From NCBI GenBank assembly GCA_022495995.1, contig JAFEMH010004913.1:1-64000 (forward strand): a stretch of DNA of 64,000 nt, given 5' to 3'. The translations under genes were made by a program, and so were the position numbers. The notes below the pieces were generated by a model. The model worked only from the letters and a program-made list of their open reading frames with translations, did no database searches and had not been told where the DNA came from. Positions within the stretch are counted from its first letter, which is position 1; each line of letters starts with the position of its first letter. Source of the stretch: Adenophora triphylla var. japonica. Lineage: Eukaryota; Streptophyta; Magnoliopsida; Asterales; Campanulaceae. This document shows positions 2,872-43,726 of the stretch, one piece after another.

Positions 2872-2914
2872 CCATAGCTGTCTGTTCATTTGCATATCAA
2901 ACAAGGGCCTTTCA
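2872..2914 (+). repeat. 3' end of the 5' LTR of element A
   Basis: These 43 bp match the end of the 3' LTR (about 15000-15042) and finish in CCTTTCA directly before the primer site. The rest of this LTR is separated by the CACTA insertion and lies outside the window. Confidence 0.85.
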
Positions 2915-2916
2915 AT

Positions 2917-2928
2917 TGGTATCAGAGC
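2917..2928 (+). promoter_or_regulatory. Primer-binding site of element A
   Basis: TGGTATCAGAGC, complementary to the 3' end of plant initiator methionine tRNA, two bases after the LTR end. It primes minus-strand cDNA in most plant copia elements. Confidence 0.9.
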
Positions 2929-2983
2929 GTGTCTTCACATTCAAAAGTCTAACAACTTGTGAAGGATTCTCTTCAAATCCACC

Positions 2984-5264
2984 ATGCCTCAACCAAGGAG
3001 AAATAATGAGAAAGACATCCCACACATTGATGACTGTTGATCTTTTGAGATTTATGCATCAAAAATAAAAACATACCTTGATGCAAACAGTATATGGAAC
3101 TGGTATGTTCTAAATAATGAAGTGTCCTACCCAACTCAAATAGATATCAATGGAGGAGCTAGTACGACGAAATCCCCAGAAGCATGGTGTGAATCTGAAA
3201 AGCAATTAATCAGTGCAAATCTAAAAGTCAAAAACATTCTTCAGAAGAGTGTAAATGACTCACTAGCACAAGAAATTGCTAAGGAACCAAATGCCAGATC
3301 AGCATGGGATCTCATTCAAACTAAATTCACTAAACACACCGGTGTCGGGACACTGAAAATTTGTATAACTTGCTTGAGGCAATTAGACAACTTCAAGTTC
3401 TATCCTGGAGAAAAAGTGAGTATTGTTCAACCAAGGTTTGAAAACCTTGTTAGATCTATTGCGACTCATGGAAAAACCTTTGAACGACAAGATCTACGCC
3501 TCAAGCATATATTCCAATCTTCCACAAGAATATGAAAAGGTAGCATTACCTATCGAGAGAAGGATCTTGAATGGAGCACAATGACAGTTGAACAGTATTT
3601 TGGAAAGCTTGAAGCTTATGAACTGGAAGGTATGATAAAAATTCAACCAGTTCCTACCATTTCACAAATTTTAGCTTTAACTGCTCAAGAATCTGCCCAC
3701 AAGCCAATCACTCACCAAGACATTGAGACCATTGTCAACAATGCCCTTCAAAAGATAAACATCAGATCCAAACAATCGGTCAAATGAGATCTCTCAAGAA
3801 GACATTCCAAGTCTCATATCCATGGTATCGAAATGCCATGAAATTTCAAAAGAAATCTTTTGACAAAAGGTACAATCCTTCCACATCTAATGCTCAACAA
3901 GACAACTTCAAGAAGACTGTTGATTGCTTTAACTGTGGAAAGCAAGGACATTACTCATCTGATTGTCCTAAACCAAGAAAACCTAGGGAAAATCAGACAG
4001 CTAAGAGATTGACCTACTCAAAAGAGATCATTCACAGTTCCAGTGCAAGCTGCTTCAATCGCTCCAAAAATAAAAATGACAAAAACAAGGAGCAAGTTAT
4101 GATAGCTGATTCATCAAAATTCAGTGATGAAGAATATGAGTCCAGTAATGACTCTGACAATGAAGGAGAGGAGGCCATGCTATGCTTTATAGCTGAAGAT
4201 GAGGAAGAGTCAGACAATGTGGAAGAAATGGAAGCACTTACTGCTGCAGAAGAACTAAAAGAGGTACATGATTTTAAATCTTTAAATATTGATGGTTTCA
4301 AACAATTAGTTTCCACTCTTTTAATTCAAACCAAGAAACAAAAAACAAGCTTTGCTTCACTGGTCAATGAGAACCTTTCCCAATCCTCAACCATTGACAC
4401 CCTCACAAAAACCAATTATGAGCTTGAGAAAGCCTGTCAAGGGCTAAGAGATCAATGCTTCATGCTTGAAAAACAAAACATGGATCGGCAGTGAGACATC
4501 CAGTACTCAAGAAAACTGTCAAAGACTCATAAATCTTGAAAAAGAGAATGATGCTCCTAAAAAGAAAATAGATTCATGGAACAAGTCAAGCAAAGCATTA
4601 TCCCTTTTCACCTACACCCAAAGACATCCTAGTGACAAAACGAGGGATTGGTGCGATAATCCTACACTAAAGATGTACACTCCTCCCATTTGGTGAAAGG
4701 ACCATTGAAAAATGGTTCTAGAAAACCTAAGCTACTGCGGCTATCAAACTCAAACCTATCTGTTCAAACCAAGGGAAAAGCAAAGGAAATCTTGTTTGGT
4801 CCTAGTCATTCAAACAAAGGACCAAGTAAAATTCAAGGAAGCAAGTATATTTGGGTTCAAAAAGGGGCCAATATACAGGAAGAAATTAAGCTGCAAAAAT
4901 GTGCTAGACAGCCAAGCCCTGACAGACACGAGGCACGATAGACAGCCAAGATCTTCCAAACAACAAAGAACCCCAAGGAAACAAAAATTCTATAACAAAC
5001 ATAGATACACCAAACAACAAAAACCTCAATGGCAATACTCAAATGGAAGAAGTCATGCAAATCAAAATGACTCCCCCAGATCATCCTATCCAAATACCTT
5101 TCAGTTTCAACCCCAATATAACAACCCAAACCACTTCTTCAATCCATCCCAATCCAGCTGTCCTTACTCCTTACATGATGCAAATCATGTCATATTACAA
5201 TACCCCAAACCAGTTCTTCAGAAAAAGATCAATGAACAAAGCTAGGGTACCAAAGAAAAACTAA
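2984..5264 (+). pseudogene. gag of element A (broken)
   Basis: The frame starts at ATG 2984 (MPQPRRNNEKD), as in element C and in the second leader copy at 15043. It meets a TGA at about 3038, where the second copy has GGA. The body carries a copia-type capsid region (3122-3535, including KICITCLRQLDNFKFYPGE) and a CCHC zinc knuckle CFNCGKQGHYSSDC at 3937-3978, which binds RNA. An acidic stretch and a coiled-coil-like region (about 4100-4490) follow, then a basic Gln/Ser-rich tail to about 5264. At least four frame changes or stops break it (about 3038, 3533, 3785 and 4494). Protein similarity to element C's gag continues through the breaks, so this is recent decay of a real gene. Confidence 0.85.
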
Positions 5265-5336
5265 TCCTTTGGACCCAAAAAAATAAATAGGGTACCATAA
5301 AATTTACTTTTACATTTTGCAGGTACCTAGGAAAGG

Positions 5337-6329
5337 ACTCGTATTTAGATAGTGGTTGTAGTAGACATATGACCTTCAATAAAGACTGGTTGCAACAATA
5401 TATCCCTAAAAATGGTCCAAATGTAACCTTTGGTGACAATTCCCAAGCTAAGGTCAAAGGATTCGGAAATCTTATTACTAAAGATATCATTTTTACAAAT
5501 GTGTCTTAGGTAGAGGGTCTCAAACACAATTTGATCGGCATTAGTCAAATGCTGTGATAAGGGATATCATGTTGTTTGCACTAAGGATCAATGTCTTGTT
5601 AAAGACAAAAGCAATAAAGTCATTACATTGACTGGATCAAGAAAAGGAAATCTCTACTTCTTAAACCTAGAGATTGTGGAATCCTCAAATGCTCACTTCT
5701 GCCTTTGTCTTTTAGTCAATCGATATGTCATGGCTATGGCACAAAAGATTGGCTCACCTTAACCATAAAACCATCTCCAAGCTTGCAAATTCAAATCTAG
5801 TCAGAGGTCTTCCAAAGATCCCATTCAAGAAGGACAAACTTTGCAAAGCATGCCAATGTGGGAAGCAAAAGAGATCTTCATTCAAGCCCAAGACCAGATT
5901 GGACACCTCAAGACCTATTGAACTACTTCATATGGATCTTTTTGGACCCATAAGAACTAGATCTTTAGGAGGAAAGTGATACTCCCTAGTTGTGGTTGAT
6001 GACTACACCAGATTCACTTGGATCATTCTTCTTGAATCCAAAAGTGACACCCTTAGCTGTCTAACAAAACTGTTCGATAAAATTCAAAATCAAAAAGGGA
6101 CATCCATCATCAAGATCAGATCTGATCATGGAAAGGAATTTGAGAACACGGGAGTAGAAGAATATTGTGGCTTGCAAAGGTATTGATCATAATTTTTCAG
6201 CCCCAAGAACACCCCAACAAAATGGTGTTCTTTGAAAGGAAAAACGAGGACAATTTGTGAGGCGGCAAGAACAATGATGTCGAACACAATCTCCCAAAGT
6301 ATTTTTGGGGTGAAGGCATCACTCTTGTT
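5337..6329 (+). pseudogene. Protease and integrase part of pol, element A (broken)
   Basis: The protease signature YLDSGCSRHMT is at about 5340. The GAG-pre-integrase zinc region (LWHKRLAHLNHKTISKLANS, then CKACQCGKQKRSS) spans about 5725-5880. The integrase core follows, with HMDLFGPIRTRSLGGK (first catalytic Asp) and IRSDHGKEFENT (second Asp). Stops at about 5507, 5549, 5977 and 6184 and a frameshift near 6225 (in the QQNGV region, before the catalytic Glu) disable it. Element C carries the same domain set with D, D and E in place. Confidence 0.85.
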
Positions 6330-8375
6330 GTGTATGTTCAAAATAAAACACTAATCAACAAATTCCATAAGAAGACTCCATATGAATTATGGAATGACAA
6401 AGTTCCTACCATTTCCTACTTTCACAGTTTTGGAAGTAGATGCTTCATCCACAATAATGGCAAGAACAATTTGGACAAATTTGACTCCAAAAGTGATGAA
6501 GGAATCTTTCTTGGGTATTCTAATACAAGCAAAGCCTATAGAGTTTACAACAAAAGAAGACTTGTAGTGGAAGAATCAATTCATGTTGACTTTGATGAAA
6601 ATAATGATCAAAGTGTGACTGAATTGTGTGATTTTGATGAAGTTTTAGGAAACCCAGATAATCTCCCTGAAGCATCTCCTATTCTTGATTCAACTGTACT
6701 CCATCATGAACAAGATTCATCAAATCTTCCATACATGGTACCAAGAAATTCATCTGACAGCTATCATGTGCAAGACAGTCATCATCTCTCTGACAGCCAT
6801 GAACCACTTCATTCTCATCATCAACCAATCCAGCCAACCAAGTCAATAGCAAACATTCCCACAACCAATCCAATTGATGAGGAAGAAAATACTCAATTAA
6901 ATGGTCATTCCTTGACTGACATCTCTCAAAATTCTTCCTTAGCTGACAGCCAACCCTTAGTAGCTGACCATCCAAATTCTTCAAGTTATCCATCTACTAG
7001 CCATCTTCCATCCCCATCCAATAATCCTCTTTCTCCTCCCAAAACCAATGCTGAATCCACCATTACTCACATCATTCCACCCAATAAAGATATTTTCATC
7101 AGTCTTCAAATTGACAAAACACCAGTTCCAGACAACATTCCTTTTATCATGAGTGCATTCATATCCCAATTGGAACCAAAGAAAATAAATGAAGCACTCC
7201 AAGATGCTGACTGGATAGAAGCTATGGAAGAAGAATTAGAACAATTTGAAAGGAACAAAGTATGGCAACTTGTTCCCAAACCAAGAAATCAAAGCATTAT
7301 TGGAACAAGGTGGGTTTTCAGAAATAAAATGAATGAGGAAGGGACTGTCATCAGAAACAAAGCCAGATTAGTAGCTCAAGGGTACAGGCAAGAAGAAGGC
7401 ATTAATTATGATGAAACATTTGCCCCTGTTGCCAGACTGGAAGCTATCAGACTATTCCTTGCTTTTGCATCTTCCAAAAAGATGAAAGTCTATCAAATGG
7501 ATGTCAAAAGTGCTTTTCTTAATGGAATATTAAAAGAAAAGGTCTATGTCTCACAACCCCCTGGCTTTGAGCACCCTAAGTTCCCTGACCATGTATTTAA
7601 GCTTGATAAAGCTCTATATGGACTCAAGCAAGCACCAAGGGCATGGTATGAAACCCTGTCAAAATTCTTACTTGGCAAAGGATTTACCAAAGGCCATATT
7701 GATAATACCCTGTTTATCAAGAAATATGGTGAAGATACCTTGCTCATTCAAGTCTATGTTGATGACATAATTTTTGGATCTTCAAAAGAGTCACTCTGCC
7801 TAGAATTTGGAAAAACCATGCAAGAACAATTTGAAATGAGCATGATTGGTGAGCTCACATTCTTCTTGGGACTTCAGGTGAAACAGTCCAGTGCAGGCAC
7901 ATTCATAAATCAGGCCAAATATACAAGAGACATGATCAAGAAATTTGACATGCAAAATGCCTCTCCTGCAAGAACTCCTCTCTCAACCACCACCAAACTT
8001 CATGATGACATTGATGGTCCAAGTGTTAATCAAACACTCTATAGAAGTTACATTGGATCCCTACTATATGTAACTGCTTCTAGGCCAGATATCATGTTCA
8101 GTGTGTGCCTGTGTGCAAGATTTCAAGCAAATCTAAAAGAATCACACATGGCAGCTGTCAAAAGGATTCTTAGGTATCTAAAGGGAACTCCAGATTATGG
8201 ATTATGGTATCCATGTGAAGCTCCTTTATTCCTAATTAGATTCACAGATTCAGACTATGCTGGATGCAATTTGGATAGAAAATCCACAAGTGGTAGCGTC
8301 GGTTTAAGGTTCAAGAATAATTTCTTGGTCCAGCAAGAAACAAACCTCAGTTGCTACATCCACAACAGAAGCTGA
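6330..8375 (+). CDS. Integrase C-terminal region, reverse transcriptase and start of RNase H, element A
   Basis: This 681-residue open frame is the best preserved part of A's pol. Residues 1-70 hold the integrase C-terminal region ([28 protein letters not shown]). Residues about 110-280 are a low-complexity linker with repeated Ser-Asp-Ser. The copia reverse transcriptase runs from about residue 300 to 560 ([20 protein letters not shown], then [12 protein letters not shown] with the catalytic Asp pair near residue 477). RNase H begins near residue 635 ([18 protein letters not shown]). The frame then shifts, and the last 20 or so residues are out of register with element C. The product would be part of a polyprotein cut by the element's own protease. 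Confidence 0.85.
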
Positions 8376-8379
8376 ATAT

Positions 8380-8727
8380 GTGGCTGCAGGACATTGTTGT
8401 TCTCAAATTTTATATCTCAAAAGTCAACTTCAAGACTTTGGAATTGTTGTAGACAATGTTCCTATTCTGTGTGACAACTCAAGCACCATTGCAATGGCTG
8501 AGAATCATGTTCAGCATTCAAAAACTAAACACATTGAAGTCAGACACCACTTTATTAGAGACCATGTTGAAAAAGGTCATATATGTCTTAATAAAATTGG
8601 AACAGAGGACAGTGTTGCTAATATTCTTACAAAAGCAATGGATTTTAAGAGCTATGCTTGGAATGATAAACTTGCCAAAATAAAAAGTCTTTTTTGCTTC
8701 ATTAACAAAAAGGGGGCATACAGATAG
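8380..8727 (+). pseudogene. RNase H C-terminal part of pol, element A
   Basis: After a frameshift around 8300-8375 the RNase H continues: AAGHCCSQILYLKSQL, VPILCDNSSTIAMAENHVQH, SKTKHIEVRHHFIRDHVEKG, then VANILTKAM. These are the usual closing motifs of copia RNase H, and element C has the same series. The copy ends with a short unrelated tail. Confidence 0.85.
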
Positions 8728-8915
8728 AGCAATGCTGTCACAAGTGAAGCCTGACAACTATCCCCTCAAAATATTCCTGATAGCCATCTACTGACAGCTA
8801 TCTATGCAAAAGACAAGGAAAAACAAAAAACATACATAAAACAACCCACAAAAACTTCCTTAAACACAAACAACATCCAGATCCAACTCCTCTTCAAATC
8901 TTCAAACCTTAGCTG

Positions 8916-9785
8916 TCAGACATTCCTAGGAAATGTCACAGTCTCTCCAGATCCACCACCTGCACTCATTCCTTCACATCTGGCCTCCTGAGTAGACTGC
9001 AAGGTCTGATGGTACCTTTGTAACCATACTGGATGCCTCTCAAGAAAGGGATCAATTGAAGTAACTGAGTACTGAAGAGAAGGACTAGCTCTTCTTGGCC
9101 ACCATTCTTCTACAACATCATAAGGTTGAAGCAAACCTTCCAGTCGTGTCACAAAGCTGAAATCCTCAGAATAAATACCATTTTCAACTCTAGACTCATC
9201 TCTCTCCACAACTGGAACTCTGACAGGGCTAAAACAACCTATAAACTGGTTGAACAGATGTGATATAGTTGAGGAAGGAGATACATGTACTCCAGCAAAG
9301 TTATCACCTCTACCCTCCAACAAACCAACCCCAGGAGAAAGTGAATCCCTGCTCACAGCTGTGTACTGCCTCTCAGGCTCAACCTTTTGCTTGACAGCTA
9401 AGCCCCTCTCAATGGCTGTCTGAGCCCTATCTTGCCCAACCAATTCTCCTAGTGTATAGACCCTCTCTGCCTTACCTTTTCCCTTGCTAGACTCACCCTG
9501 ATCAACCCTAATATTTTTCCCAAAAAGCCTTATCCCTTCTCCATCTCTACCATCAACCTTCTCTCTGACAGCTATCTCTTTGATACCATAATCCTGCTCT
9601 ACTCTCACCCTCTTATTTTTACCTTTGTCACTCACCACCCTTGAACCTTCAATCACATTGAAAGACACCCTTTCTCTCTCCCCTTCATCTCCCTCCAAAT
9701 CACCCTCATGACTTTTCTCAAAAACCAGTTGTTTAGCTGTGTGAGCCATTTTTTTGGGATTGAACTTTGAAGAAAATCTACCCAT
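8916..9785 (-). CDS. Antisense accessory ORF of element A (unknown function)
   Basis: An intact 289-codon frame on the strand opposite to gag-pol, starting at 9785. The N-terminal two thirds is charged and rich in Glu, Arg, Lys and Gly, with RVYTLGELVGQDR near residue 130. The C-terminal third has conserved blocks GDNFAGV, VEEWWPRRASPSLQ and IDPFLERHPVWLQRY. The same blocks recur in element C's antisense ORF (28127-29067 plus 36678-36729) despite clear DNA divergence, so the protein has been under selection. I see no signal peptide, membrane segment or known catalytic motif. Antisense ORFs between pol and the 3' LTR are known in some plant retrotransposon lineages, but I do not recognise this family. 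It faces away from the sense ORF at 10276. Confidence 0.75.
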   Translation of the reverse strand: MGRFSSKFNPKKMAHTAKQLVFEKSHEGDLEGDEGERERVSFNVIEGSRVVSDKGKNKRVRVEQDYGIKEIAVREKVDGRDGEGIRLFGKNIRVDQGESSKGKGKAERVYTLGELVGQDRAQTAIERGLAVKQKVEPERQYTAVSRDSLSPGVGLLEGRGDNFAGVHVSPSSTISHLFNQFIGCFSPVRVPVVERDESRVENGIYSEDFSFVTRLEGLLQPYDVVEEWWPRRASPSLQYSVTSIDPFLERHPVWLQRYHQTLQSTQEARCEGMSAGGGSGETVTFPRNV

Positions 9786-10275
9786 CTGTGTTTATAAAAC
9801 AAACTGAATGAGTTTCATCAAAAATTGTCATTGTTTTATAGACAAATTGATCCATAGCTATCTCAGACAGCCATCATCATTCAACTTAGACTTAACTGTC
9901 AAAATGTTTATATTCTCTGACAGCTAGGTTAAAGCAATTTTTTTTCGGTGATTTGATCGTGTTAATTGCTCACAAATATCACCTCCTTAGCCTTCTCGTT
10001 ATCTGCAATATTCTTGAAAAAGGGAATGTTCTTCCCATGTTTTGTGGGATTTAATGGCCTCAACGTGGGGAAGGGCAAAAATAACTGTTCATATGAACAG
10101 TTACTAAACTTTGAAATCCCCAATGCTCATTAAAACCCACTCTCCACTCATTATTTTCCTCACTCTCTTTTTTGAAACCAAAACTCCTGTTTCATTAACT
10201 CTCTGTTTGTAATCCGTTTCTTTCCCACACTAATCCACCATCAAATTTCTTCAACCCTAATTCATTCAACCATCC
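9786..10275. promoter_or_regulatory. Divergent intergenic region of element A with a central palindrome
   Basis: The 490 bp between the antisense ORF start (9785) and the sense ORF start (10276) hold no open frame. A perfect 22-bp palindrome (arm TAACTGTTCAT, centre 10092.5) occupies 10082-10103. Each arm begins with TAACTG, a known plant MYB core. Element C has a 20-bp version at the same place. The motif CTGACAGCYA also occurs here (9917). A shared two-way promoter is the simplest reading, but it is inference. Confidence 0.5.
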
Positions 10276-10989
10276 ATGGCAGAATCAAAAGCAAACTACC
10301 CAGATGCTCACAGCTACTTCATTAAACCTAGCTTTTATGATTCTGAAGTTGGGGCATTCATTAAAGAATTACTTGAAGTCAATGAACTGCTTGATTTCAT
10401 GGGAGCCAGACCACCAATTTATGAAGAATTATGTAGGGAGATTTACCTTGTGGGAAGGAGAAACAAGGAAGACAACTCAATAACTGCCACCATTGACAAT
10501 ACTGAGATAACCATTACTCAGGAATTAGTCAGTGAGGTCTATGATATCCCAAACAAATCAGATGCTGTGAAGAACATTTGGGATAGAGGGTCAGATAGAT
10601 TGAAGACTGTGTATGAAAAATTCCTTAGTGTTAAAGTCCCTGACTTCAAGAATGTACAGGACAAGGCAATGGTTAAAGACAAAACTGATATCTTCAAGTC
10701 AACCCTCATGGATGTGGTCAACAAGGCCATTGATGGCAAGCAATCTTCTTTTGACCAAATTGGAGCAAATGAATGGAAGCAGACGCTGAGCCTAATGACT
10801 AAAGACACAAACTGGTGCACAGTTCTACTCCACAACTTCCAGCTAGCAGCTTCAACCTCTTCTCTAAAATTCAAGAAACAAGATGGAAAAATGAATAACT
10901 TTAGATTCATGAGTGGAATACTAGAAGTTCTGATTCCCAAGCTCAATCCTCCACTACACAAGAAATGGGTGAAGACTGTAAAGCTGTGA
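10276..10989 (+). CDS. Sense accessory ORF of element A, N-terminal segment
   Basis: Starts MAESKANYPDAHSYFIKP; 237 codons to a TGA at 10987. The same frame continues after the stop into the segment at 11020, so the TGA is probably a mutation. Blocks FIKPSFYDSEVGAFIKELLE, PPIYEELCREIYLVG and NNFRFMSGILEVLIPKLNPP are shared with element C's ORF at 27626. The layout (FY, then a G-rich strand, then 'IT-x-x-x-V-x-x-x-Y-x-IP') resembles the plant transposon or env-like domains reported 3' of pol in SIRE elements. That assignment is by pattern only. No membrane segment or signal peptide is evident here. Confidence 0.7.
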   Translation: MAESKANYPDAHSYFIKPSFYDSEVGAFIKELLEVNELLDFMGARPPIYEELCREIYLVGRRNKEDNSITATIDNTEITITQELVSEVYDIPNKSDAVKNIWDRGSDRLKTVYEKFLSVKVPDFKNVQDKAMVKDKTDIFKSTLMDVVNKAIDGKQSSFDQIGANEWKQTLSLMTKDTNWCTVLLHNFQLAASTSSLKFKKQDGKMNNFRFMSGILEVLIPKLNPPLHKKWVKTVKL

Positions 10990-11019
10990 GAGACAAAGTG
11001 CTTCAATGACAGAACATTT

Positions 11020-12321
11020 GTGTTAAAACAAAAGAAAGGAGCTATAATGAGAGGTGGAGATGATGTGAGCACTAGAAGCGTTAATGAAACACAAGAAAAG
11101 ATGCAGGAAGAAAGAAGAAAGAAGATTGAACATTGGAAGGACTTGGTAGCATTGGCTACAAGTAGGAGAATAAAGAGGGGTGTACAATCCAATGTTAAGA
11201 AGACAGGGCTATTGAAAAAGACTGTGGTACCTCATGGTGATAAAAGCAAGAACAAGGCTGTTCAAGTGACAGACAGTGAAGGAACCTTGTCTGACAGCCA
11301 TGAAAAAGATGATGAAGAAAGGGGTGCTATTGACAGTCATAGGGATGACACCATGGGTCAAACTGATGCTGGTGATGCTGATATAGATCCTCAAGAGCTT
11401 CAGGCAGCTATTGACTTGTCCAAAATTCTGCATAAAGGCAAACAACCTCTGACAGCCATCCCTACCAGGCAGGTTATCACCAGATCCAAGGTACAATCTT
11501 TCTCATCCCTTCCCTCTAAATCCTTGCCTCAGAAAAGAAAGCCAGAAAAGAAAGCACCAAAACCCAAGAAAACCAAACTAAATACCCCTTCCCCTTCTCC
11601 AAATTCCACAACTATCAGTCCAATAGTTGACAATTCATCCACAACTAGCTCTGATCATCTGTCAGCTATAGAAGCAATCCTCAATCTCAATGAACCATTA
11701 AAAAAGCAACCTTTGAGGGGGAACACTGATGATAATATCCTCTTTGCCCAACCTCAACTGTCGGCCAAAATTTTGAGAGCCATTGATGCTATTGAGTTGG
11801 ATGGGAATCCCAATACTGAAAAAGCTACTCTCATATTTCTTGATGAAGTTCTAAGTAAAGAAGAGACAAAGATAGCCTTAGATGAACTCAGGTCTAGGTT
11901 CATGAAGAAAAATAGTGGACCAGGAGAGTCATCTAGCAATCCCAAGATGACAGCTATGGATGTAGATACTCAAACCATCCCTTCTATCCCTGAAACTGAG
12001 TCTGTGAGTGAACCTGCCCCAAATGTTGAAATTGATAGGGGGAATCTTGAAAAGACAACTAAGGTTATACAAAGTCTTAAGAAGATAGGAGTTGAAATTG
12101 ATCCCAATTTAGTTTCAAAGGGAGAAACAATCATGGATGCATGCAAGGGACTTGTATTTGATGGAACCCCAGACAATGAGGCAGCCCTTGAAACTATTCT
12201 TGAACAAAAATTGAACAAAGGAGAAGTCAGGGCAGCCTTAAACCTCCTAAAATCTCAATTTAGAGCTGATCTCCTCAAGCAAGGTCTTGGTCAATCCTCT
12301 AATTCAATCCCAAATTTTTGA
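11020..12321 (+). CDS. Sense accessory ORF of element A, middle segment
   Basis: 433 codons in the same frame as the segment before it. It begins with a Lys/Glu-rich likely coiled coil (ETQEKMQEERRKKIEHWKDL), as in element C (LKEKKAKEIQMWQRLVHM). A basic, nuclear-localisation-like stretch (KKAPKPKKTKL) and a Ser/Thr/Pro-rich linker follow. Two internally similar blocks then occur, ATLIFLDEVLSKEETKIALDELRSR and AALETILEQKLNKGEVRAALNLLKSQ, each a predicted helical pair. Element C retains one such block (MLPTALYYLRQMLPEDEVLIALDVIKS). Function unknown. Confidence 0.65.
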   Translation: MLKQKKGAIMRGGDDVSTRSVNETQEKMQEERRKKIEHWKDLVALATSRRIKRGVQSNVKKTGLLKKTVVPHGDKSKNKAVQVTDSEGTLSDSHEKDDEERGAIDSHRDDTMGQTDAGDADIDPQELQAAIDLSKILHKGKQPLTAIPTRQVITRSKVQSFSSLPSKSLPQKRKPEKKAPKPKKTKLNTPSPSPNSTTISPIVDNSSTTSSDHLSAIEAILNLNEPLKKQPLRGNTDDNILFAQPQLSAKILRAIDAIELDGNPNTEKATLIFLDEVLSKEETKIALDELRSRFMKKNSGPGESSSNPKMTAMDVDTQTIPSIPETESVSEPAPNVEIDRGNLEKTTKVIQSLKKIGVEIDPNLVSKGETIMDACKGLVFDGTPDNEAALETILEQKLNKGEVRAALNLLKSQFRADLLKQGLGQSSNSIPNF

Positions 12322-12367
12322 ACTCATATCTCTACTCCTCCCAAGCTAATTTCTCCAATCCCAAAAA

Positions 12368-13603: not shown

Positions 13604-13829
13604 ATTGTATTACTGTGGAACATTTTTTTTGTGTTTGAAACAATCTGTTTTGTTTGTTTCAGTATTTATGGAGGTAATATGTGAACTTCTTTCATTTTGA
13701 GTTAATTCCAAGTATTTCAATCTTATTCAGATTACTTGTGAAATGTTGAGAATCCCTGAATTACTTCTTTCATTAACATCTTTCTTATCATTAACTGTGA
13801 AGTCATGTTCTAAATAGATCTTCCTTTAC

Positions 13830-13844
13830 CAAAAAGGGGGAAAT
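13830..13844 (+). promoter_or_regulatory. Polypurine tract of element A
   Basis: AAAAAGGGGGAAAT directly before the LTR start TGTTAGG. It primes plus-strand DNA synthesis. Element C has the same tract on the other strand at 24395-24411. Confidence 0.8.
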
Positions 13845-14351: not shown

Positions 14352-14358
14352 TATAAAT
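14352..14358 (+). promoter_or_regulatory. TATA box in the LTR of element A
   Basis: CTATAAATAGAAGAG lies in the expected U3 position. Transcription would start some 30 bp downstream, placing the hairpin array in the R/U5 part of the RNA. Confidence 0.7.
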
Positions 14359-15722: not shown

Positions 15723-15800
15723 GGAATGGATAAAGAGGAAGTCGGGACGTCCGTCGAGGAGGACGAAGGTAAGGAAACTGGTATTGTACTAGCAGCATGA

Positions 15801-34131: not shown

Positions 34132-34264
34132 CGTGGCGAAGAACCTAGACGTGTAGCAACCGTGTTAAACCATGATCGAGTCCCAACAAGTCGGCTGAAT
34201 AGGGTGAATGAAGGCTTTGAAGGTTTGAAGGTTTTGACCAAAACACGAAAAGACCGAACACTTA

Positions 34265-34296
34265 TCTCGTACGAGACAAGTAGTCTCGCGCGAGAC
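34265..34296. repeat. Palindrome pair in the leader of element E (gag-proximal)
   Basis: TCTCGTACGAGA (centre 34270.5) and GTCTCGCGCGAGAC (centre 34289.5), 19 bp apart, about 135-165 bp before the gag start. Same design as the pair in the LTR. Confidence 0.8.
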
Positions 34297-35428
34297 TTCA
34301 CCACGGAAAGTCACAATTTTCTGATTTTAATCCTAATTTTGGTCGGACGGAAAATCCGTTTTGGGGGTTCCTAACATTCAGAATCCAAACCTAAGGACCT
34401 AGGGATCAGAGTAATCTCAAGTAACATCAAGTTTTGTGCAATAATTTTGGTGAGAAATTTTTCTCTTTTTAGGGACAAATCCGAAGGGACAACCGTAGGG
34501 ACAATTCCGAAGCGACAATTTTTTGATTTCTTTTCCATGGATTATTGCACAAAACGATCTTGACAAGGGATTACAAGGACTCCAAGATCAAATCGACCGG
34601 TCACGGAGTGTCCTAAAAAGTCAATCTACATGATTATGTGGCGATGCAGGGCTGGAAGGCTAGGCTCCCCGCGATATGACAATCTAGATGGATTGAATAC
34701 GCGGAGTGGGATGATCCAACTTCGGAGAGACCGGCGACTAGGTGGTTACCGTCATCCGTCCTTAGTGTGGGTCCCGGGTTTATAGAGGGTATGTAGTGCA
34801 ATGACAGATATAGCATGAGTGCGCGTGTGTGAGAGTCGAATCTAGGTGATAGAGTAAAATAGAAAGTTTTATTTTTTGAAAACAAAAGGAAAACAAATAG
34901 TGGCCTCACCAAGTGGTTGCCTACGTTTCTCCCAAATTAGGAAGACTCAGGCCGTCGTAGTTCCACTTAAAGAGAGAGAGAAGGAATTAAATTAATTCAA
35001 ATTACAACTCCCGAATTCTCCGTGGATCGGACTTTAAATCAAAAAACCAATCGCACGCAGGTATATAGTTTAAGCAATTAAAATTATTCTACCCTGCAAA
35101 ATAAAATTAATACAAGCAAAATAGAAATAACATTTATTTTGAATTTTCCGGATTTTTTTTGAAAATTTTAGAAACTGTTTTTTGATTTTTCTTTTTTTTT
35201 TCTGGTCAAACCTGAAAGGATAGTAAACTAACCAAGTTTTTTTTTTGTTTTTAATGGATGTGGTCAAACTTAGATTGAAAGTCAACTGACCAAGGTAGGT
35301 TTGATTTTTTAAATTGATGCGGTCAAACTTTGACCAAAACAAATAAACAAACCCCCTTTTTTTTTCTTTATGTACTGCCGCCGCCAAAATGGGAACGGGA
35401 ACAGATTCATTTTTTTTAAAACCGTGTA

Positions 35429-35466
35429 CTAATCTCGCGCGAGATTAGTATATCTCGCGCGGGATA
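35429..35466. repeat. Palindrome pair in the leader of element E (primer-site-proximal)
   Basis: A 20-bp perfect palindrome (35429-35448; half CTAATCTCGC) and an imperfect one, TATCTCGCGCGGGATA (35451-35466). Centres are 20 bp apart. They lie about 140 bp downstream of the primer site in the element RNA. Confidence 0.8.
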
Positions 35467-35601
35467 AGTATTCGGACAGTTTTTTTTTTGAAAACAGTGT
35501 CAAAAAATTTCAAAAAATCCAGAAAAATCAGAATTTTTACAGAAAAATAAAAAGATTGATAATACTCAATTGTAAAGCAAGTCTAACCCTCTTAATTAAT
35601 T

Positions 35602-35620
35602 GTCCCCAGCAGAGTCGCCA
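35602..35620 (-). promoter_or_regulatory. Primer-binding site of element E
   Basis: TGGCGACTCTGCTGGGGAC on the minus strand, one base inside the LTR. This form is typical of Tat/Ogre elements and is usually matched to an arginine tRNA; I did not verify the tRNA. Confidence 0.8.
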
Positions 35621-35621
35621 C

Positions 35622-36677
35622 TGTAGCGTTGTGAGAAGAATTTTATCTTTTGAGTCGCCACCTATATTATTCGTTTGGAAACATAGGAAAACCATTTTGA
35701 AAAGAGATTTGAGTTCGGGGCTTAGGTTATGGAATGGGTAGGTCAAGGAGAATCCATTCCACCAAATTCGGAGATCGGTCTTGCTAAAGAAAAGAGAGGT
35801 TTTCAATCTTTACAATATATATATAATTAAAGAAAACAAGCAAACCCTAATCAATTTCTTGATTAGGAATGTCGGATTGTATGCTTCGAGATCGCCTTCA
35901 TCGATTGAAGGGACTCTAGGCCAATCCTTTTGATGGGATTACACCACTCTAAAAGCCAATAGAGATAGATTGAGAAGAAGAGAGTAAAAGTATAGGAATT
36001 TACCTAGCGTTTGGGGAGTTTTTGATTTAGAATGTGGTTCTAAGATGTCTTCTCGGTTGAGAAGTGATTTGGGCAGAGTTTAGACTCAATATGAGAGTCA
36101 AATCTTGATGTGGACAGAGTTTCGCCTCAATCCTTGATTCGGGTTTGGATGTTTGTCTATCAACAAGGTTGATAAACAAACTTTAGGTGATTTTAGGGAG
36201 GTTTTGTAAGTGATTTGAAGGAATCTTTCGTGGAGAGAAACCAACAAATTGTGTGTGTTGTGTGGAATTCTGGACCTCTAAAACAGTGAAAGTCACCAAG
36301 TATTTATAGGGGTTTAAGAGGTAGAGGTGGAGAGGTAAAACACTCCTAGGAAGCTTCCAGAACTCAAATTCTATTGAATGACCGGATGGGATAAGATTTT
36401 ATCAAGAAAAGAGTTTGAAACGGAGAAGGGAAGTGATTCTGCACGTCCTGCCGAGGGGTTGTCTCGCGCGAGACACGTATGTATCGTGCGAGACAACTAG
36501 TCTTTTGACCATTTTGCCCTCTTCAGTTATTTCGTTAGTCAGTTAGGTCCAAAACTAACGAGGTTAGTTAGAAACTTAACGAAACAAGACGAAACTGATA
36601 TGCTTTCATCAAAACATAAAAGAGAGATGAAGAGTAGTGTAATCATGTAATTATGAGTTCAGAATGGGGTGTCTACA
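35622..36677 (-). repeat. 5' LTR of element E
   Basis: 1056 bp, nearly identical to the left LTR. The palindrome pair is at 36461-36474 and 36481-36494, again 20 bp apart; the second has one changed base (GTATCG for GTCTCG). Confidence 0.95.
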
Positions 36678-36729
36678 GGGTATACATCAGAGGATTTCCT
36701 TGATCAGCCAAAGAATAGTCTAGGATGAG
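36678..36729 (+). pseudogene. C-terminal end of element C's antisense ORF, after element E
   Basis: Begins with the second GGGTA copy and continues the frame interrupted at 29067 for about 16 codons to a stop at about 36729. This is direct evidence that E interrupted a reading frame that was open here. Confidence 0.7.
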
Positions 36730-36964
36730 AAATCTTAGCTGTTAGAGCCTATATGAAGATCAGCTGAGAGGGAGAAGGAGGAAGGACTGTGAAGCTTTTG
36801 GTAATGTGAATTTATGGTTGTTTTTATGTTTGAATGATGAATTGGTTGGAAGGTGTTTGGTTTTTGTTTTTGTATGTTTTAGTTAAAAAGGATGGTTAGC
36901 TGTCAGATACCTTAATGTCGACAGCAATCATAGGTTGTTTTAATTTCAGTAATGAATAAACATT

Positions 36965-37396
36965 TTATTTTGGTAGATTTATCATTCTCAGCATTTCTCT
37001 TAGCATCTCAACTCTTTTCTCATCTATGGCCTTTGTTAGGATATCAGCCACATTGTCTTCAGTGCACACTTTGGAAAGGTTGATATTCCCTTTTTCAACA
37101 TGGTCCCTTATGAAGTGGTGCCTGACTTCAACGTGCTTGGTTTTAGAGTGTTGAACTGGATTTTCTATCATTGCAATGATGCTTGAGTTATCACAGAAAA
37201 TGGGTATGTTTGAAAGGTCCATCCCAAAGTCTTGAAGTTGACTTTTGAGATATAGGATTTGAGAACAGTAAAGGCCATCATCAATATATTCAGCCTCTGC
37301 TGTTGAAGTGGCTACTGAGGTTTGCTTCTTGCTTGACCAAGAAATTATTCTTGATCCAATAAATTGGCATCCACCACTTGTGGATTTCCTATCCAA
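36965..37396 (-). CDS. RNase H of element C
   Basis: 143 codons: MDRKSTSGGCQFIGSRIISW, TSVATSTAEAEYIDDGLYCS (catalytic Glu region), IPIFCDNSSIIAMIENPVQH, KHVEVRHHFIRDHVEKG and VADILTKAI. These are the full C-terminal motifs of copia RNase H. A frame break separates it from reverse transcriptase. Confidence 0.85.
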   Translation of the reverse strand: MDRKSTSGGCQFIGSRIISWSSKKQTSVATSTAEAEYIDDGLYCSQILYLKSQLQDFGMDLSNIPIFCDNSSIIAMIENPVQHSKTKHVEVRHHFIRDHVEKGNINLSKVCTEDNVADILTKAIDEKRVEMLREMLRMINLPK

Positions 37397-37681
37397 GTTG
37401 CATCCAGCATAATCTGAATTTGTGAATCAAATCAAAGAGAATGGAGATTCAGTGGGAAACCAAAGACCATAATCAGGAGTTCCTTTGAGATATCTCAGAA
37501 TTCTCTTGACAGCTGAGAGATGAGATTCCTTATGATTGGCTTGAAACCTTGCACATAGGCAAACACTGAACATGATGTCAGGTCTAGAGGCTGTTACATA
37601 TAGGAGAGATCCAATATAACTCCTATATAGTGTTTGATTGACACTCTGACCATCAGGATCAGCATGAAGCTTGGTTGTTGG

Positions 37682-38133
37682 TTATAAGGGGGTTCTAGCA
37701 GGTGAGGCAGTTTGCATATCAAACTTTTTGATCATATCCCTTGTATACTTGGCTTGGTTAATGAAGATTCCTTCCTTCATTTGTTTGATTTGAAGGCCTA
37801 GGAAGAAGGTAAGCTCACCAATCATACTCATTTCAAACTGGTTCTTCATGTTTTTCCCAAATTTTGTGCATAAGTCTTCATTTGATGATTCAAAGATAAT
37901 GTCATCCACATATACTTGGATGAGTAGCAAGTCTTCTCCATATTTCTTGATAAACAAAATATTGTCAATATGCCCCTTAGTGAATCCTTTTCCAAGGAGG
38001 TATTTTGATAGGGTGTCATACCAAGCTCTAGGGGTTTTTTTGAGGCCATACAAGGCTTTATCCAGTTTATACACATGGTCTGGGAACTTTGGATGCTCAA
38101 AACCAGGGGGTTGAGACACAAATACCTTCTCAT
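37682..38133 (-). pseudogene. Reverse transcriptase of element C, C-terminal part
   Basis: Carries [57 protein letters not shown] with the catalytic Asp pair, and FFLGLQIKQMKEGIFINQAK. A stop at about 38146 and a frame change near 38330 cut it from the N-terminal part. Decay continues between 37682 and 37396. Confidence 0.85.
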
Positions 38134-38335
38134 TTAGAACTCCATTTTAGAAGGCACTTTTGACATCCATTTGGAACACCTTCATTTTCTTGAATGAGGC
38201 AAAGGCAAGGAACAGTCTGATGGCTTCTAATCTTGCTATAGTGGCAAAAGTTTCATCATAGTCAATTCCCTCTTCTTGTCTATACCCTTGAGCAACCAGT
38301 CTAGCTTTTTTTTCTTACAACAATGCCCTCTTCAT

Positions 38336-40189
38336 TCATTTTTTTCTAAAAAACCATCTTGTTCCAATGACAGTTTGGTTTTTAGGTTTAGGAACAAGTT
38401 GCCAAACCTTGTTCCTTTCAAATTGTTCCAATTCATCTTCCATAGCTTCAATCCAATCAGGGTCTTGAAGGGCTTCATTTATTTTCTTGGGTTCTATTTG
38501 GGAGATGAAGGCACTCATTAATGAATCATAGACAGGCATATTTGGAAGAATGGTCATTTTATGAATGGGAAGGTCAATATAGATGTTGCTGTTAGGTGGA
38601 ATGATGTGGGTGATAGGTTCAGGTTGAGGAATAGAGTGATTGTTGTTGCAGCAAGGTTGGATATGGCTACTGTCAGAGATATTTTGTTGGCTCGATGAAG
38701 GTAAGCTGTCAAGGGCATCATAGCTGTTAGGTGCACCTTTGCTGTTGGTTTGAGAATCTTGGCTGTTAGATATAATGGGATTTATATTAATATCTTTGGG
38801 CACAATATAAGGAAGGGTAGGTGATTTTTCTTCAGGAGTGATGTTTGAGGAGTCATGCACAGGAGACACCTCAGGAATGTTGTCTGAGTTTCCAACAGCT
38901 TCATCAAAATCACATAATTCAGTGCAGGTTTGATCATTGTTTTCATCAAAGTCAACATGAATTGATTCTTCTACAACAAGTCTCCTTTTGTTGTATACTC
39001 TGTAGTCTTTGCTTGTATTAGAGTATCCTAGGAAGATGCCTTCATCACTTTTGGAATCAAATTTATCAAGGTTATTTTTGCCATTGTTGTGAATGAAGCA
39101 TCTTCTTCCAAATCCATGGAAATATGAGAAGGTTGGTGTTCTACCATTCCATAGCTCATAGGGAGTCTTGGTGTGATATTTGTTGATGAGAGTTTTGTTT
39201 TGGACATAGACAGTTGTGGTGACAGCTTCTCCCCAAAAGTATTTAGGTAAGTTGTTTTCTGACAGCATAGTTATGACTGTTTCGCAAATGGTTATGTTCT
39301 TTCTTTCTGCAACACCATTTTGTTGTGGTGTTCTTGGAGCTGAAAAGTTGTGCTCTATTCCTTTCTGATCACAGTATTCTTCAACACAAGTGTTCTCAAA
39401 TTCTTTACCATGGTCAGATCTAATTTTAATGATAGATAGACCCTTTTGGTTTTGAATTTTGTTGAACAATTTGACCAAGTGATCCAAGGTTTCCCTTTTG
39501 GATTCAAGAAGGATAATCCAAGTGAATCTAGTGTTGTCATCAACTACCACCAGTGAGTATATCTTTCCACCAAGAGATCTGGTTCTAATTGGTCCAAAAA
39601 GGTCCATGTGAAGAAGTTGCAGAGGCTTTATAGTATCCAATCTTGTCTTGGCTGAGAAGGAGGTTTTCTTTTGTTTTCCACATTGACAGGCCTTGCATAG
39701 CTTGTCTTTCTTGAAGGTGATTTTGGGAAGTCCTTTGTCTAGGTTGGAATTTTCTAATTTAGAGATGCTCTTGAGGTTGAGGTGAGCCAGTCTTTTGTGC
39801 CACAGCCATGATATATCAGACTGACTATAGGATAGCAGGCAGTGAGAATGGGAGGACTCCACAATCTCTAAGTTTAGACAGTAGAGATTTCCCTTTCTTG
39901 TTCCAGTGAGAATAACTTTGTGGTTGACATCTTTGACAGTGCAGTGATTCTTTGAGCATACAACATAATATCCCTTGTCACAGATTTGACTGATGCTAAT
40001 CAAATTGTGTTTGAGACCTTCTACATAAGACACATTAGTGAAAATGATGTATTTAGTAATAAGGTTTCCTGATCCTTTGACTTTGGCTTGAGAATTATCA
40101 CCAAAAGTTACATTTGGACCATTTTTAGGGACAGATTGTTGCAGCCATTCTTTGTTGAAGGTCATATGTCTGTTGCATCCACTATCCAA
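38336..40189 (-). CDS. Protease, integrase and start of reverse transcriptase, element C
   Basis: 617 codons. Protease DSGCNRHMT (residues 2-10). GAG-pre-integrase LWHKRLAHLN (about 129) with CKACQCGKQKK (about 165-175). Integrase catalytic triad: D196 (HMDLFGP), D259 (RSDHGKEF) and E295 (NGVAERKN), so the D-E spacing is the standard 35 residues. The integrase tail has TPYELWNGRTPTFSYFHGFG. A Ser/Asn/Pro-rich linker leads to the first block of reverse transcriptase ([20 protein letters not shown]). The frame closes at a frameshift around 38336. Integrase appears intact by motif. Confidence 0.9.
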   Translation of the reverse strand: MDSGCNRHMTFNKEWLQQSVPKNGPNVTFGDNSQAKVKGSGNLITKYIIFTNVSYVEGLKHNLISISQICDKGYYVVCSKNHCTVKDVNHKVILTGTRKGNLYCLNLEIVESSHSHCLLSYSQSDISWLWHKRLAHLNLKSISKLENSNLDKGLPKITFKKDKLCKACQCGKQKKTSFSAKTRLDTIKPLQLLHMDLFGPIRTRSLGGKIYSLVVVDDNTRFTWIILLESKRETLDHLVKLFNKIQNQKGLSIIKIRSDHGKEFENTCVEEYCDQKGIEHNFSAPRTPQQNGVAERKNITICETVITMLSENNLPKYFWGEAVTTTVYVQNKTLINKYHTKTPYELWNGRTPTFSYFHGFGRRCFIHNNGKNNLDKFDSKSDEGIFLGYSNTSKDYRVYNKRRLVVEESIHVDFDENNDQTCTELCDFDEAVGNSDNIPEVSPVHDSSNITPEEKSPTLPYIVPKDININPIISNSQDSQTNSKGAPNSYDALDSLPSSSQQNISDSSHIQPCCNNNHSIPQPEPITHIIPPNSNIYIDLPIHKMTILPNMPVYDSLMSAFISQIEPKKINEALQDPDWIEAMEDELEQFERNKVWQLVPKPKNQTVIGTRWFFRKK

Positions 40190-40489
40190 ATACCATATTC
40201 CTTTCCTAGGTTCCTATAAAACAAAAATAAAATTTATGGTACCCTTTTATTCTTTTTGGGTCCAAAGGATTAGATATTCTTTGGTACCCTAGCTTTGTTC
40301 ATTGCTCTCTTTCCAAAAAAACAGTTTAAGGTATTGTAATATCCCATGATTTGCATCATGTAGGGTGTGAGAGCAGTAGGTTGGGAATTGTTGAAGAAAT
40401 GGTTTGGAGAAAAGGATTGGTTGTGGTTATGGTGATACTGAGTCTGGCTATGAAAGTTGTTTGAATGTGATGATCTTGGTGAATTATTT

Positions 40490-42553
40490 TAGCTAGCATG
40501 ACTCTTTCCATTTGAGTACTGCCTATTGGGTTTTTGCTGTTTGGAGTATGTGTGATGGTTGTAGAATCTTTGCTGTCTAGGTGATCTATGTTGTTCACCA
40601 AATCTTTGCTGTCTAGGAAATCTTGGTTGTCCAGAAAATTTTTGTTGTCTAGTAGATTTTTGCTGTTTGTTCACCTTTTGCTCTTTGATTCCTTTTCTTG
40701 GCCAGATGTATTTGCTTTTGTTTGTTTGTTTTACTCCTTCTTTAGGTTGACTTGAACTTGCTTCATTGGTTTCATTGATTTCTTTTTGTTTCTTTGAGTC
40801 CTCTTTGGTTTGAATGGGATAAACATGTTGCTGGGCTTTGACATAGTTCATGCTTTCAAGAATCATCTTATCAATAGCCTTTTCATCAGTGGGAGGGATA
40901 TAGGTTTTCAAAGTGGGATTTTGAGCTCCAATCCCTGACTTGTCACTAGGGTGTCTCTGGTTGTAGCTAAACAATGACACAGCCTCTCCTGATTTGTTCC
41001 AGGAATAAATCTTCTTTTTAAGAGCTTCATTTTTCTTTTCAAGATTGATAGTGTTTTGGTTGTTTTCAAGAGATCTTGAATTCTCAGCTGTCAGCTCATA
41101 ATAAGTCTTTTCAAGCATAAGACATTGCTCTTTTAACCCTTGGTTGGCTCTCTCAATGTTTTCAATGGTTTTGTTTTGGGAAAGGTTGTCAGTGAGCAAT
41201 GAAGCAAAGCTAGTTTGGTGTCTCTTGATTTGAATTAAGAGAGTGCTAACTAATTGTTTAAATTCTTCAATATTTAAAGAGTTAAAATTGGGTACCTGTT
41301 TTAATTCTTCAGCAACAGCCAATGCTTCAAGATCTTCTTCACTATCTGATTCTTCATCATCTCCTTCCATTAGGCATATCATAGCCTCTTCTCCTTCATT
41401 GTCAGATTCACTGGAGTCAAATTCTTCATCACTGAATTTTGATGAGTCAGCAATCATTACTTGTTCTTAGTTTATCTCATTCTTCTTTTTGGAGCAGTTG
41501 TAGCTGTTGCATCTGGAGCTGTGAATGATTTCTTTTGAGTAGGTGAGTTTCTTAGCTGTCGGATTGTCCTTAGGTTTCTTTGGTTCAGGACATTCAGATG
41601 AATAGTGACCAAGTCTTCCACAGTTGAAGCATTCAATTTTCTTTTTGTGGTTCTCTTGATCAGAAGTGGATGGACTGTAGTTTCTCTCAAATGTCTTCTT
41701 ATGAGTTCTCATGGCATTTCTGACAGCCATGAATATGAGACTTGGTAGGTCTTCTTGTGAGATATGTTTGTTTGAGGGGTGGTTTACTTTCTGAAGGGAG
41801 ATGAGGACCATGGAGTCAATGTCTTGTTGAGTAATGGGTTAGTGAGGAGTTTCCTGGGCAGCCAAGGAAAGAGTTTGTGAGATAGAAGGAACAGGTTGAA
41901 TTTTTATCATTCCTTCTAGTTCATAGGCCTCAATCTTCCCAAAGTATTGCTCAACAGTCATGGTGCTCCATTCTGCACCTTCTCTTATAGGTAAGGATAC
42001 CTTCTCATATTCTTGGGGAAGATTGGAATATATTTTCAGGCATAGGTCTTGGTTTTCAAAGGTTTTTCCATGGTCAACAATGGATCTGACAAGGTCCTCA
42101 AACCTTGGTCTAGCAGCACTGACCTTTTCACCAGGGTAGAATTTAAAGTTGTCTAAGCTGCCTAAGCAAGTTATACAAATTTTGAGTTCTAACACTGGTG
42201 TGTTTGGTGAATTTGGTATGGATGAGTTCCTAGGCTGATTCTGCAGTTGGTTCTTTAGCAATCTCTTATGCTAGAGAGTCATTCACACTATTTTGATGGA
42301 TGTTTTTGACTTTAAGGTTAGCACTAATTACTTGCCTTTCATACTCAGTCCAGTTTTCTGGGGATTTCATTTTGCTGGCTCCACCATTTGAATCTGGTTG
42401 GATTGGATAGGTGACTTCATTTTCTAAAGCATACCAGTTCCAAATATTATTTGCATCAAGATATGTTTTTATTTTAGATGCATAAATTTCAAAAGATCCT
42501 CAATCATCAATGTGTGGAACGTCTTTCTCATTATTTCTTCTTGGTTGAGGCAT
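40490..42553 (-). pseudogene. gag of element C (broken)
   Basis: ATG at 42553 (MPQPRRNNEKD). Stops occur at about 42500, 42271 and 41839. Capsid block KICITCLGSLDNFKFYPGEK at about 42180; zinc knuckle CFNCGRLGHYSSECPEPKKP at about 41600. A 322-codon open part (41457-40489) has the acidic region, the likely coiled coil and a Gln/Arg-rich repetitive tail (SPRQQRFYNHHTYSKQQKPN). It is parallel to element A's gag. Confidence 0.85.
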
Positions 42554-42608
42554 GGTGGGTTGGAAGAGGATCATTCACAAGTTGTTAGACTTTTGGTGGT
42601 GAAGACAA

Positions 42609-42620
42609 GCTCTGATACCA
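42609..42620 (-). promoter_or_regulatory. Primer-binding site of element C
   Basis: TGGTATCAGAGC on the minus strand, two bases inside the LTR. Confidence 0.9.
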
Positions 42621-42622
42621 AT

Positions 42623-43726
42623 TGAAAGGCCCTGTATACTTGATCAACAGATAGATGATCAGACAGTTAAGCTTTGGCAGCTAAGGTGAATCTTAGTTAT
42701 CAGATATTAACTGATTTAAAAGATAGAGATAAATGTGCAGCGGAATAAATAATGGTGAAATAATGTAAAGACAAGTGATTAGTGTACGTGTGTGTGAGTG
42801 AGTGTGTGTTTCTGTGTGATAATACCAAATGACACAAGGGTTTAAAGTGGTTCAGAGTTTACTCCTCCTACGTCCACTCTAACTGTCAATCTTGACACGT
42901 GAGTTCAATCCACTAAACTCTAGGTCTCTTTAAGAGATACAAGATTGATTAGGCAAGTTCCTTGAACTTCCTCTTCCAAATTAGTACAGTCAATTAGGGA
43001 TTTGCTTGTTACGAAGAAAATTACTCAATACACACTTAAAGTACAGTCTTAAGTGGTTACAAGATTGTTTATACACTTGAAGTGCAGTCTCAAGTGTTTG
43101 AAGTTTGTTTTGATGATGGTTTGCAGGTTTGCAGGTATACAAGGGTGTAAGAAGGGTTGCAAAGGTTGTGGGTTAAAGGACAGGAGCTTCAGTCATGGAG
43201 TCTTCCTTTTATAAGCTGAGATATAGCCGTTGAAGGAGACAAGTCAGTAAATGAATGTGGGTGGAATAGTGTTTGCATTTAGTGCTTTGTTGTCTGGACA
43301 AGTACAGGCTGGAATTTGCAGTCCAAGTTCAGGAAATCTTCAGAGAGATGACATGGCAATGTTTGTTGAGAGTTTTGAGAATGGCACATCTTTGTCATCA
43401 CTTGAAATAGAACATTGCAGATGGCATTGAAGATCATAGCTGTCAGAGAGATGAGCTCTCTGCTGTTGAGGAATCTTAGATGTCAGGCTTAGTTATTAGA
43501 TCAAGATGAGTAGGGGACATGATTTGAGGAAGATGACATGTAATGATCTCTTTTTAATGAAATGCACTTGTATTATTGATCATTACTGTCAGGTTGATTT
43601 ATCAGAACTTGTTAAGTCTTGGCTGTCTGATACCAATTGAATGTATCTCTGCTGTCTGATAACATTAGACATGTTTCTTTGTCAAAACCACACATAACTA
43701 TGTAGATACATAGTTAGGTCCTAACA
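42623..43726 (-). repeat. 5' LTR of element C
   Basis: 1104 bp. On the minus strand a TATA box (GCTTATAAAAGG, 43218-43207) is present; the 3' LTR has lost it. Two hairpins with GACTGYAC loops and complementary arms (ACACTTGA/TTCAAGTGT at about 43072-43096; CACTTAA/TTAAGTG at about 43033-43055) match the array in element A. Confidence 0.9.

Follow-up and report, generated by a model that had tools for sequence, protein, structure and literature searches.

VANDALs are DNA transposons, and Grande, RIRE2, Retand and PvRetro13 are Ty3/gypsy elements. The target words of the VANC proteins have been given as YAGTATTAY for VANC21 and as AGTTGTCC or AGTTGTAC for VANC6 (Hosaka et al. 2017, PMC5735166; Sasaki et al. 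2023, PMC10398659); in VANDALs such words lie in non-coding tandem repeats, and binding by VANC has been shown (PMC5735166; PMC10398659). Sireviruses carry family-specific repeated motifs (RMs), with 8-32 copies per element (Bousios et al. 2010, PMC2829016). They occupy the upper part of the long terminal repeat (LTR), on the upstream side of the TATA box, as well as the linker that precedes the ENV-like gene, and a few occur where ENV begins; they are palindromic, 12 of 13 having a CGG-CCG core, and border CpG islands (PMC2829016). Antisense open reading frames (ORFs) between pol and the 3' LTR of plant LTR retrotransposons are kept among copies, and a regulatory role has been proposed for them (Vicient and Casacuberta 2020, PMC7264820; PMC11963269); the named cases are Grande, RIRE2, Retand and PvRetro13, and the product is often TRP28 (Retand TRP28, PMC11963269; PMC7264820). 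Neither the repeated motifs nor the ENV-like and antisense genes of plant retrotransposons, Sirevirus-like or other, have a proven function in the passages of the cited papers that concern them. Here we describe a 12-base word, CWGACAGCYAWG, spread through A and C, two diverged copies of one Ty1/copia family with an antisense gene, in a 64,000-nucleotide stretch of Adenophora triphylla var. japonica DNA (contig JAFEMH010004913.1, positions 1 to 64,000; hereafter the window). We put at somewhat better than even, roughly 0.55, the probability that this word is a double-stranded DNA recognition site for some sequence-specific protein acting along the whole element.

Like the Sirevirus RMs, the A/C word is short and family-specific, has a similar copy number, occupies the upper LTR and the pre-ENV linker, and is carried by elements with the same LTR junction. 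Unlike them, it is non-palindromic, without CpG and sense-biased, and it is also present in gag, in the linker between integrase (IN) and reverse transcriptase (RT), and in the downstream ORFs. With the VANC system A and C share a short degenerate word enriched in one family (here, within the window) and an element with an accessory gene. They differ from it in being LTR retrotransposons whose words are mostly dispersed, 17 of them in ORFs, and whose binder is putative, and only two small arrays of A and C hold word-like units. As in the antisense-ORF elements, the antisense gene of A and C lies between pol and the 3' LTR and is kept in both copies, but here it is in a Ty1/copia element and its protein has no Pfam family and is not TRP28. 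The spellings of the word were not found in the literature searched, and our literature searches turned up no copia element that combines an orphan antisense gene with a non-palindromic word running across its LTR, linker and coding sequence. Sirevirus RMs, VANC words and antisense ORFs are each known, and we file the combination in A and C as a variant on these.

An earlier, sequence-only reading of the window had reported ten exact copies of the 10-base word CTGACAGCYA in A and eight in C. Our recount agrees with those numbers and with all of the listed positions but one, 27995, which is off by one and should read 27994. These 18 exact copies in the window compare with a mean of 0.15 and a maximum of two in 100 dinucleotide shuffles, and the rest of the window, including element E, which lies inside C, has none. 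The word had also been described as absent from the other elements, which is true of exact copies, but one form with no more than one mismatch lies in E at 30968; it is one of 43 sites in the window within one mismatch of CTGACAGCTA, for which 2.73 were expected. CTGACAGCTA itself occurs 13 times in A and C, and the commonest of 2000 words obtained by reordering its letters occurs four times and is itself a shifted piece of the motif. Chance as a full explanation was rejected by these shuffles and reordered words. A profile built from the sites gave a unit of 12-13 bases, CWGACAGCYAWGR, longer than the 10-base word, and beyond this unit the flanks of the sites are mutually unlike. The 12-base form CWGACAGCYAWG was found at up to one mismatch 50 times in the 25.1 kb of A and C, against 0.8 expected under a first-order Markov model, with 19 sense and 6 antisense words in A and 21 and 4 in the pieces of C; these 50 words are only partly independent, as the LTRs of C are mutual copies, a 228-base stretch occurs twice in A, and two small tandem arrays contain word-like units. 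In the other 38.9 kb of the window (E, 1-2871, 15228-23329 and 43730-64000) there were none at this threshold and five at exactly two mismatches. Within the window, then a sample of two copies of the family in one 64-kb stretch, the word is limited to A and C.

Profiles learned on one copy recovered the word in the other. With a threshold of 11, a profile learned on A found 14 and 19 sites in the two pieces of C, against 0.92 and 0.57 expected per strand, and no site in each of four control regions, while a profile learned on the 3' piece of C found 28 sites in A and 24 in the 5' piece of C, against 1.36 and 0.54 per strand, and two sites in the four control regions together. Since synonymous-codon shuffles give far fewer words than the ORFs hold, coding does not make the words: the 14 ORFs of A and C contain 17 words at up to one mismatch, and 200 such shuffles had a mean of 1.9 and a maximum of six. 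The enrichment came from A pol, A antisense, A S2, C pol1 and C antisense. Coding constraint as a full explanation was therefore rejected by these shuffles; the claim of the sequence-only reading that protein coding cannot explain the word is borne out, and the Ser-Asp-Ser and Leu-Thr-Ala-Ile readings that it gave for words in A match the ORF frames.

The words might instead be a functionless by-product, generated from an early word by local duplication and slippage and passed on to both copies. Some do lie in small arrays (8777-8804, with a unit of 14 bases; 40565-40666, with a unit of 18), and a spacing of 18 or 24 bases separates some pairs. We regard this explanation as quite improbable, because most words are single and far apart, their flanks are unlike outside the 12-13 bases, and the over-representation persists within ORFs and, in both copies, at places that A and C do not share. 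Tandem duplication as a full explanation was likewise rejected with Tandem Repeats Finder. The 18-base array, in the gag of C, encodes PRQQRF-like repeats, and its unit (AGACAGCAAAGATT) resembles the word.

In order to compare the places of the words, the two halves of C were aligned separately to A 2904-8690 (pol side) and A 8900-15042 (3' side), words between or outside these being left out, and a place was called shared when a word of C on the same strand, two mismatches allowed, fell within 3 columns. On the pol side this held for 3 of the 10 words of A and on the 3' side for 9 of 31, making 12 of 41 in all, although words can attract the alignment; under random shifts the means were 0.07 and 0.37, and none of 2000 shifts reached the observed values. 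Overall identity between A and C was 0.76 on the pol side and 0.57 on the 3' side. At the shared words it was 121/144, a figure raised by the choice of word pairs, against 296/517 in the ungapped flanks. With 12 words kept in place and the remaining 29 not shared, words have been both kept and replaced: some seem to have persisted in the family and others to have come or gone, at a similar density throughout. Selection for protein binding would keep and re-create words in this manner.

Most of the words sit in DNA whose sequence can vary freely, and they crowd the IN-RT linker, the linker from pol to the ENV-like gene and the LTR. The 6449 bases of integrase core and RT-RNase H (RH) DNA of A and C contain just 1 of the 50. 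At up to one mismatch the density is 0.7 per kb in the integrase core of A and 0 in that of C, 0 and 0 in RT-RH, 8.9 and 7.1 in the spacer between pol and the antisense gene, and 5.0 and 4.7 in the 3' LTR; S3 and the last spacer of A have no word at this threshold. The words at 13969, 14087, 14111 and 14135 in the 3' LTR of A are upstream of a TATA-like TATAAATA at 14352, while weaker TATA-like strings at 13888 and 13898 are upstream of the words, and the end of this LTR has a sense word at 14983 and an antisense word at 15001. The sole TATA-like string of the 3' LTR of C, at 23782, is downstream of the U3 words. With the U3 words and the four words before the antisense ORF, two word clusters appear to lie near likely promoters. 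The LTRs also contain a 41-base tandem repeat with GACTGTACTT-like cores, at 14567-14673 in A, downstream of its TATA-like box, and at 43032-43110 in C; a second repeated word within it, GACTGTAC, occurs five times in A and three times in C. Coordinates of the elements, genes, linkers and exact words are collected in Table 1.

Table 1. Positions in the window of the two elements, their genes and linkers, and the exact copies of CTGACAGCYA
Feature	Position	Strand	Remarks
Element A	2872..15227	+	Ty1/copia, permuted: LTR remnant, internal region, full 3' LTR, start of second internal region
Element C	23332..43726	-	Same family as A; GTTAT target repeats on both sides; split by E (29068-36678)
3' LTR of A	13845..15042	+	
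Sense ORFs S1, S2, S3 of A	10276..13603	+	S1 10276-10989, S2 11020-12321, S3 12368-13603; place of ENV-like gene; no Pfam family
Antisense ORF of A	8916..9785	-	289 amino acids; conserved orphan protein
C counterpart of antisense ORF	28127..29038	+	Broken by stops; 35% identity, E value 5e-46
Four words before antisense ORF	9853..9928		Two at one and two at two mismatches; 68-132 bases before ORF start
IN-RT linker of A	6701..7050	+	4 words at up to one mismatch, 11.4 per kb
IN-RT linker of C	38620..38789	-	2 words at up to one mismatch, 11.8 per kb
Linker of A, pol to S1	8691..10275	+	Contains antisense ORF; 7 words at up to one mismatch
Exact word	6754..6763	+	
Exact word	6790..6799	+	Place common with C 38769
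Exact word	6943..6952	+	
Exact word	8791..8800	+	
Exact word	8910..8919	-	Antisense to A
Exact word	9565..9574	+	
Exact word	9917..9926	+	Place common with C
Exact word	11291..11300	+	
Exact word	11449..11458	+	Place common with a C word
Exact word	14111..14120	+	U3 of A
Exact word	23403..23412	-	3' LTR of C; place common with A 14983
Exact word	24091..24100	-	3' LTR of C; place common with A 14135
Exact word	25303..25312	-	
Exact word	26411..26420	-	
Exact word	27994..28003	-	Place common with A 9917
Exact word	36897..36906	-	
Exact word	41720..41729	+	Antisense to C, in gag
Exact word	43437..43446	-	5' LTR of C

Several observations weigh against a double-stranded DNA recognition site or against a protein of the element as its binder. 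The words are biased in strand, for which a DNA site gives no need, with a sense to antisense ratio of 40:10 at up to one mismatch (expected sense share 0.60, p 0.002) and of 62:22 at two mismatches (expected share 0.63, p 0.03), the sites not being fully independent in either comparison; the A-rich sense strand explains the share of 0.60 only. At up to one mismatch, words are missing from six of the 14 ORFs, and the single words of A gag2, C gag and C S2/3 are not unusual, since 29-36 of 200 of their own shuffles reach them. S1 has no word in A and two in C. The antisense proteins of A and C are only 35% identical and yet the word is common to both copies, unlike the VANC proteins and their targets, and no known DNA-binding domain was recognised in the antisense protein by Pfam or by PDB sequence search.

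The strand bias, which exceeds composition, would fit a word that acted in the sense RNA, for example as one of many scattered signals for packaging, export or translation to which Gag or a host RNA-binding protein binds, and the spread of words throughout the transcribed element, avoiding conserved coding DNA, would suit such signals as well. We consider this improbable. Antisense words are themselves enriched about 30-fold (10 against 0.32 expected, two of the ten being one word duplicated in A and two being LTR copies in C), 7 of the 10 are farther than 20 bases from the nearest sense word, and in C two retain their place when two mismatches are allowed. In predicted local RNA folds the 40 sense words were unpaired to a lesser degree (0.42) than 180 random sites (0.52; p 0.017). 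Because of this antisense enrichment and the lack of exposure in predicted RNA, recognition of double-stranded DNA is favoured as the better reading, with the sense bias weighing against it. The sequence-only reading had proposed a DNA or RNA recognition word; a recognition word is backed by the shuffles, the cross-copy profiles and the shared places, and of its two forms DNA is the one favoured.

The confidence that we place in DNA recognition is divided roughly equally between a protein of the element and a host factor as the binder. The putative binder on the side of the element is the product of the antisense ORF. Differences between A and C in the antisense frame number 155 at third codon positions and 101 and 95 at the others (260 codons), and among database candidates of 0.55-1.75 times the query length the protein had four matches, from 64% identity down to 33% (Orobanche hederae). 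By these data the ORF encodes a conserved gene product and is an accessory gene of both copies. The protein has no Pfam family, no relative in a PDB sequence search and none in a scan of viral contigs, and single-sequence structure prediction gave no usable model for S1 or for the antisense protein, with a mean predicted local distance difference test (pLDDT) score of 43 and 31, respectively. Of the words that precede the antisense ORF, those at 9891 and 9917 are at the same aligned places as C 28021 and 28003. Inside the ORF is a relative of the word with the palindrome CACAGCTGTG, A 9352-9363 corresponding to C 28639-28650 with 12/12 bases identical.

The antisense protein is attractive as a putative binder because both copies carry its gene as a conserved accessory gene and because words precede its start. 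Its targets would be the words clustered in U3, those clustered ahead of its own start and the internal ones, and by binding them it would maintain transcription of the element or shield it from silencing, in the way that VANC acts for VANDAL transposons. A copia family would then have its own VANC-like system, in which an antisense-strand protein binds a 12-base word sown through LTRs, linkers and the free parts of coding sequence and marking every copy for activation or relief from silencing. This proposal is tentative and, taken as a whole, rather unlikely. If true, the word would be a self-recognition tag in a retrotransposon, partly written into coding sequence, and retrotransposons and DNA transposons would have evolved sequence-specific self-protection independently of each other. 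With one word, one conserved antisense gene and two copies, the protein and the word make a directly testable pair.

A host transcription factor could equally bind the word, its sites having been gathered as promoter or enhancer elements, above all in U3, with the internal sites along. This we hold to be just as doubtful as the VANC-like system. The word is common to A and C though their antisense proteins differ by 65%, the words cluster in U3 upstream of a TATA-like box, and the core TGACAGCT is one form of the KN1-BLH site, TGACAG(G/C)T (PMC3022553). That core is the same, but the G variant is nearly absent from the A/C word and changes within TGAC are tolerated: in A and C together TGACAGGT occurs once, TGACAGCT 22 times, AGACAGCT five times, AGACAGCC seven times and TGACAGCC five times, a tolerance unlike that of KN1-BLH. 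The KNOX-BELL site itself is accordingly disfavoured by the near absence of the G variant and the common changes within TGAC. A promoter, moreover, does not need dense internal clusters in gag-pol linkers, and there is no like enrichment elsewhere in the window, host promoters being outside that comparison. If a host factor does bind the word, the word would indicate the time and place of the element's expression.

A and C are Ty1/copia LTR retrotransposons. C has LTRs and the 5-base GTTAT target repeat at both ends, and its Pfam domains follow the order gag_pre-integrs, rve, SH3 and the start of RVT_2, with integrase before RT; A has Retrotran_gag_2, zf-CCHC and RVT_2. The junction of LTR and primer binding site, CA-ATTGG-TATCAGAGC, is exact in A and C and is the one given for Sireviruses (PMC2829016). 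The terminal polypurine tract (PPT) of both copies is AGGGGGAA with AT/TG, one letter from the AGGGGGAG that, followed by AT/TG, is the terminal PPT of Sireviruses, where several PPT copies occur, mostly no more than 0.5 kb from the 3' LTR (PMC2829016). Sense-strand AGGGGGA is at 11716, 12037 and, as the terminal copy, 13835 in A, and at 26108 and, terminally, 24398 in C; no extra PPT copy lies within 0.5 kb of the 3' LTR in either. For Sireviruses, 13 elements with a palindromic repeated motif and 17 with a C-rich integrase signal near the LTR end have been given (PMC2829016). The palindromic CGG-CCG motif is absent from the lists of most enriched words of A and C, and no C run was seen at their LTR ends, read by eye. 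S1-S3, without a Pfam match, occupy the place of the ENV-like gene between pol and the 3' LTR; their counterparts in C hold stops and have 56% identity for S1 and weaker similarity for S2 and S3. Protein searches with S1 and S3 gave no relatives among proteins of 0.55-1.75 times the query length, and the viral contig scan gave no relative of the RT. By the junction, rather than by an RT tree, A and C are Sirevirus-like, and because clustered PPTs, CGG-CCG motifs and the C-rich signal were not found, we go no further than that term.

The permuted A starts about 43 bases before an LTR end, passes through the full 3' LTR and stops 185 bases into the second internal region, so that 2872-3099 and 15000-15227 overlap over 228 bases at 99%. 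Its left breakpoint coincides with an antisense copy of the word. Insertion of a one-LTR circle, or recombination between copies in tandem, could have given rise to A.

Over-represented words of E were considered as being of the same kind as the A/C word and rejected, CCGAGGTCAC and its neighbours making up a tandem array at 30448-30864 and CTCGCGCGAG occurring at four places; in this control no dispersed word of the A/C kind was seen in E. The array with CCGAGGTCAC has a unit of about 50 bases and lies just inside the LTR (30448-30865). CTCGCGCGAG is a CpG-rich palindrome, found at 29911, 34285, 35434 and 36463, with one copy per LTR and two inside. A palindromic 94-base tandem repeat with long inverted arms, rich in CTGGATATCC, extends from 60141 to 60422, and 2.5-kb direct repeats of 92% identity at 50417-52932 and 57540-59992 are possibly the LTRs of another element.

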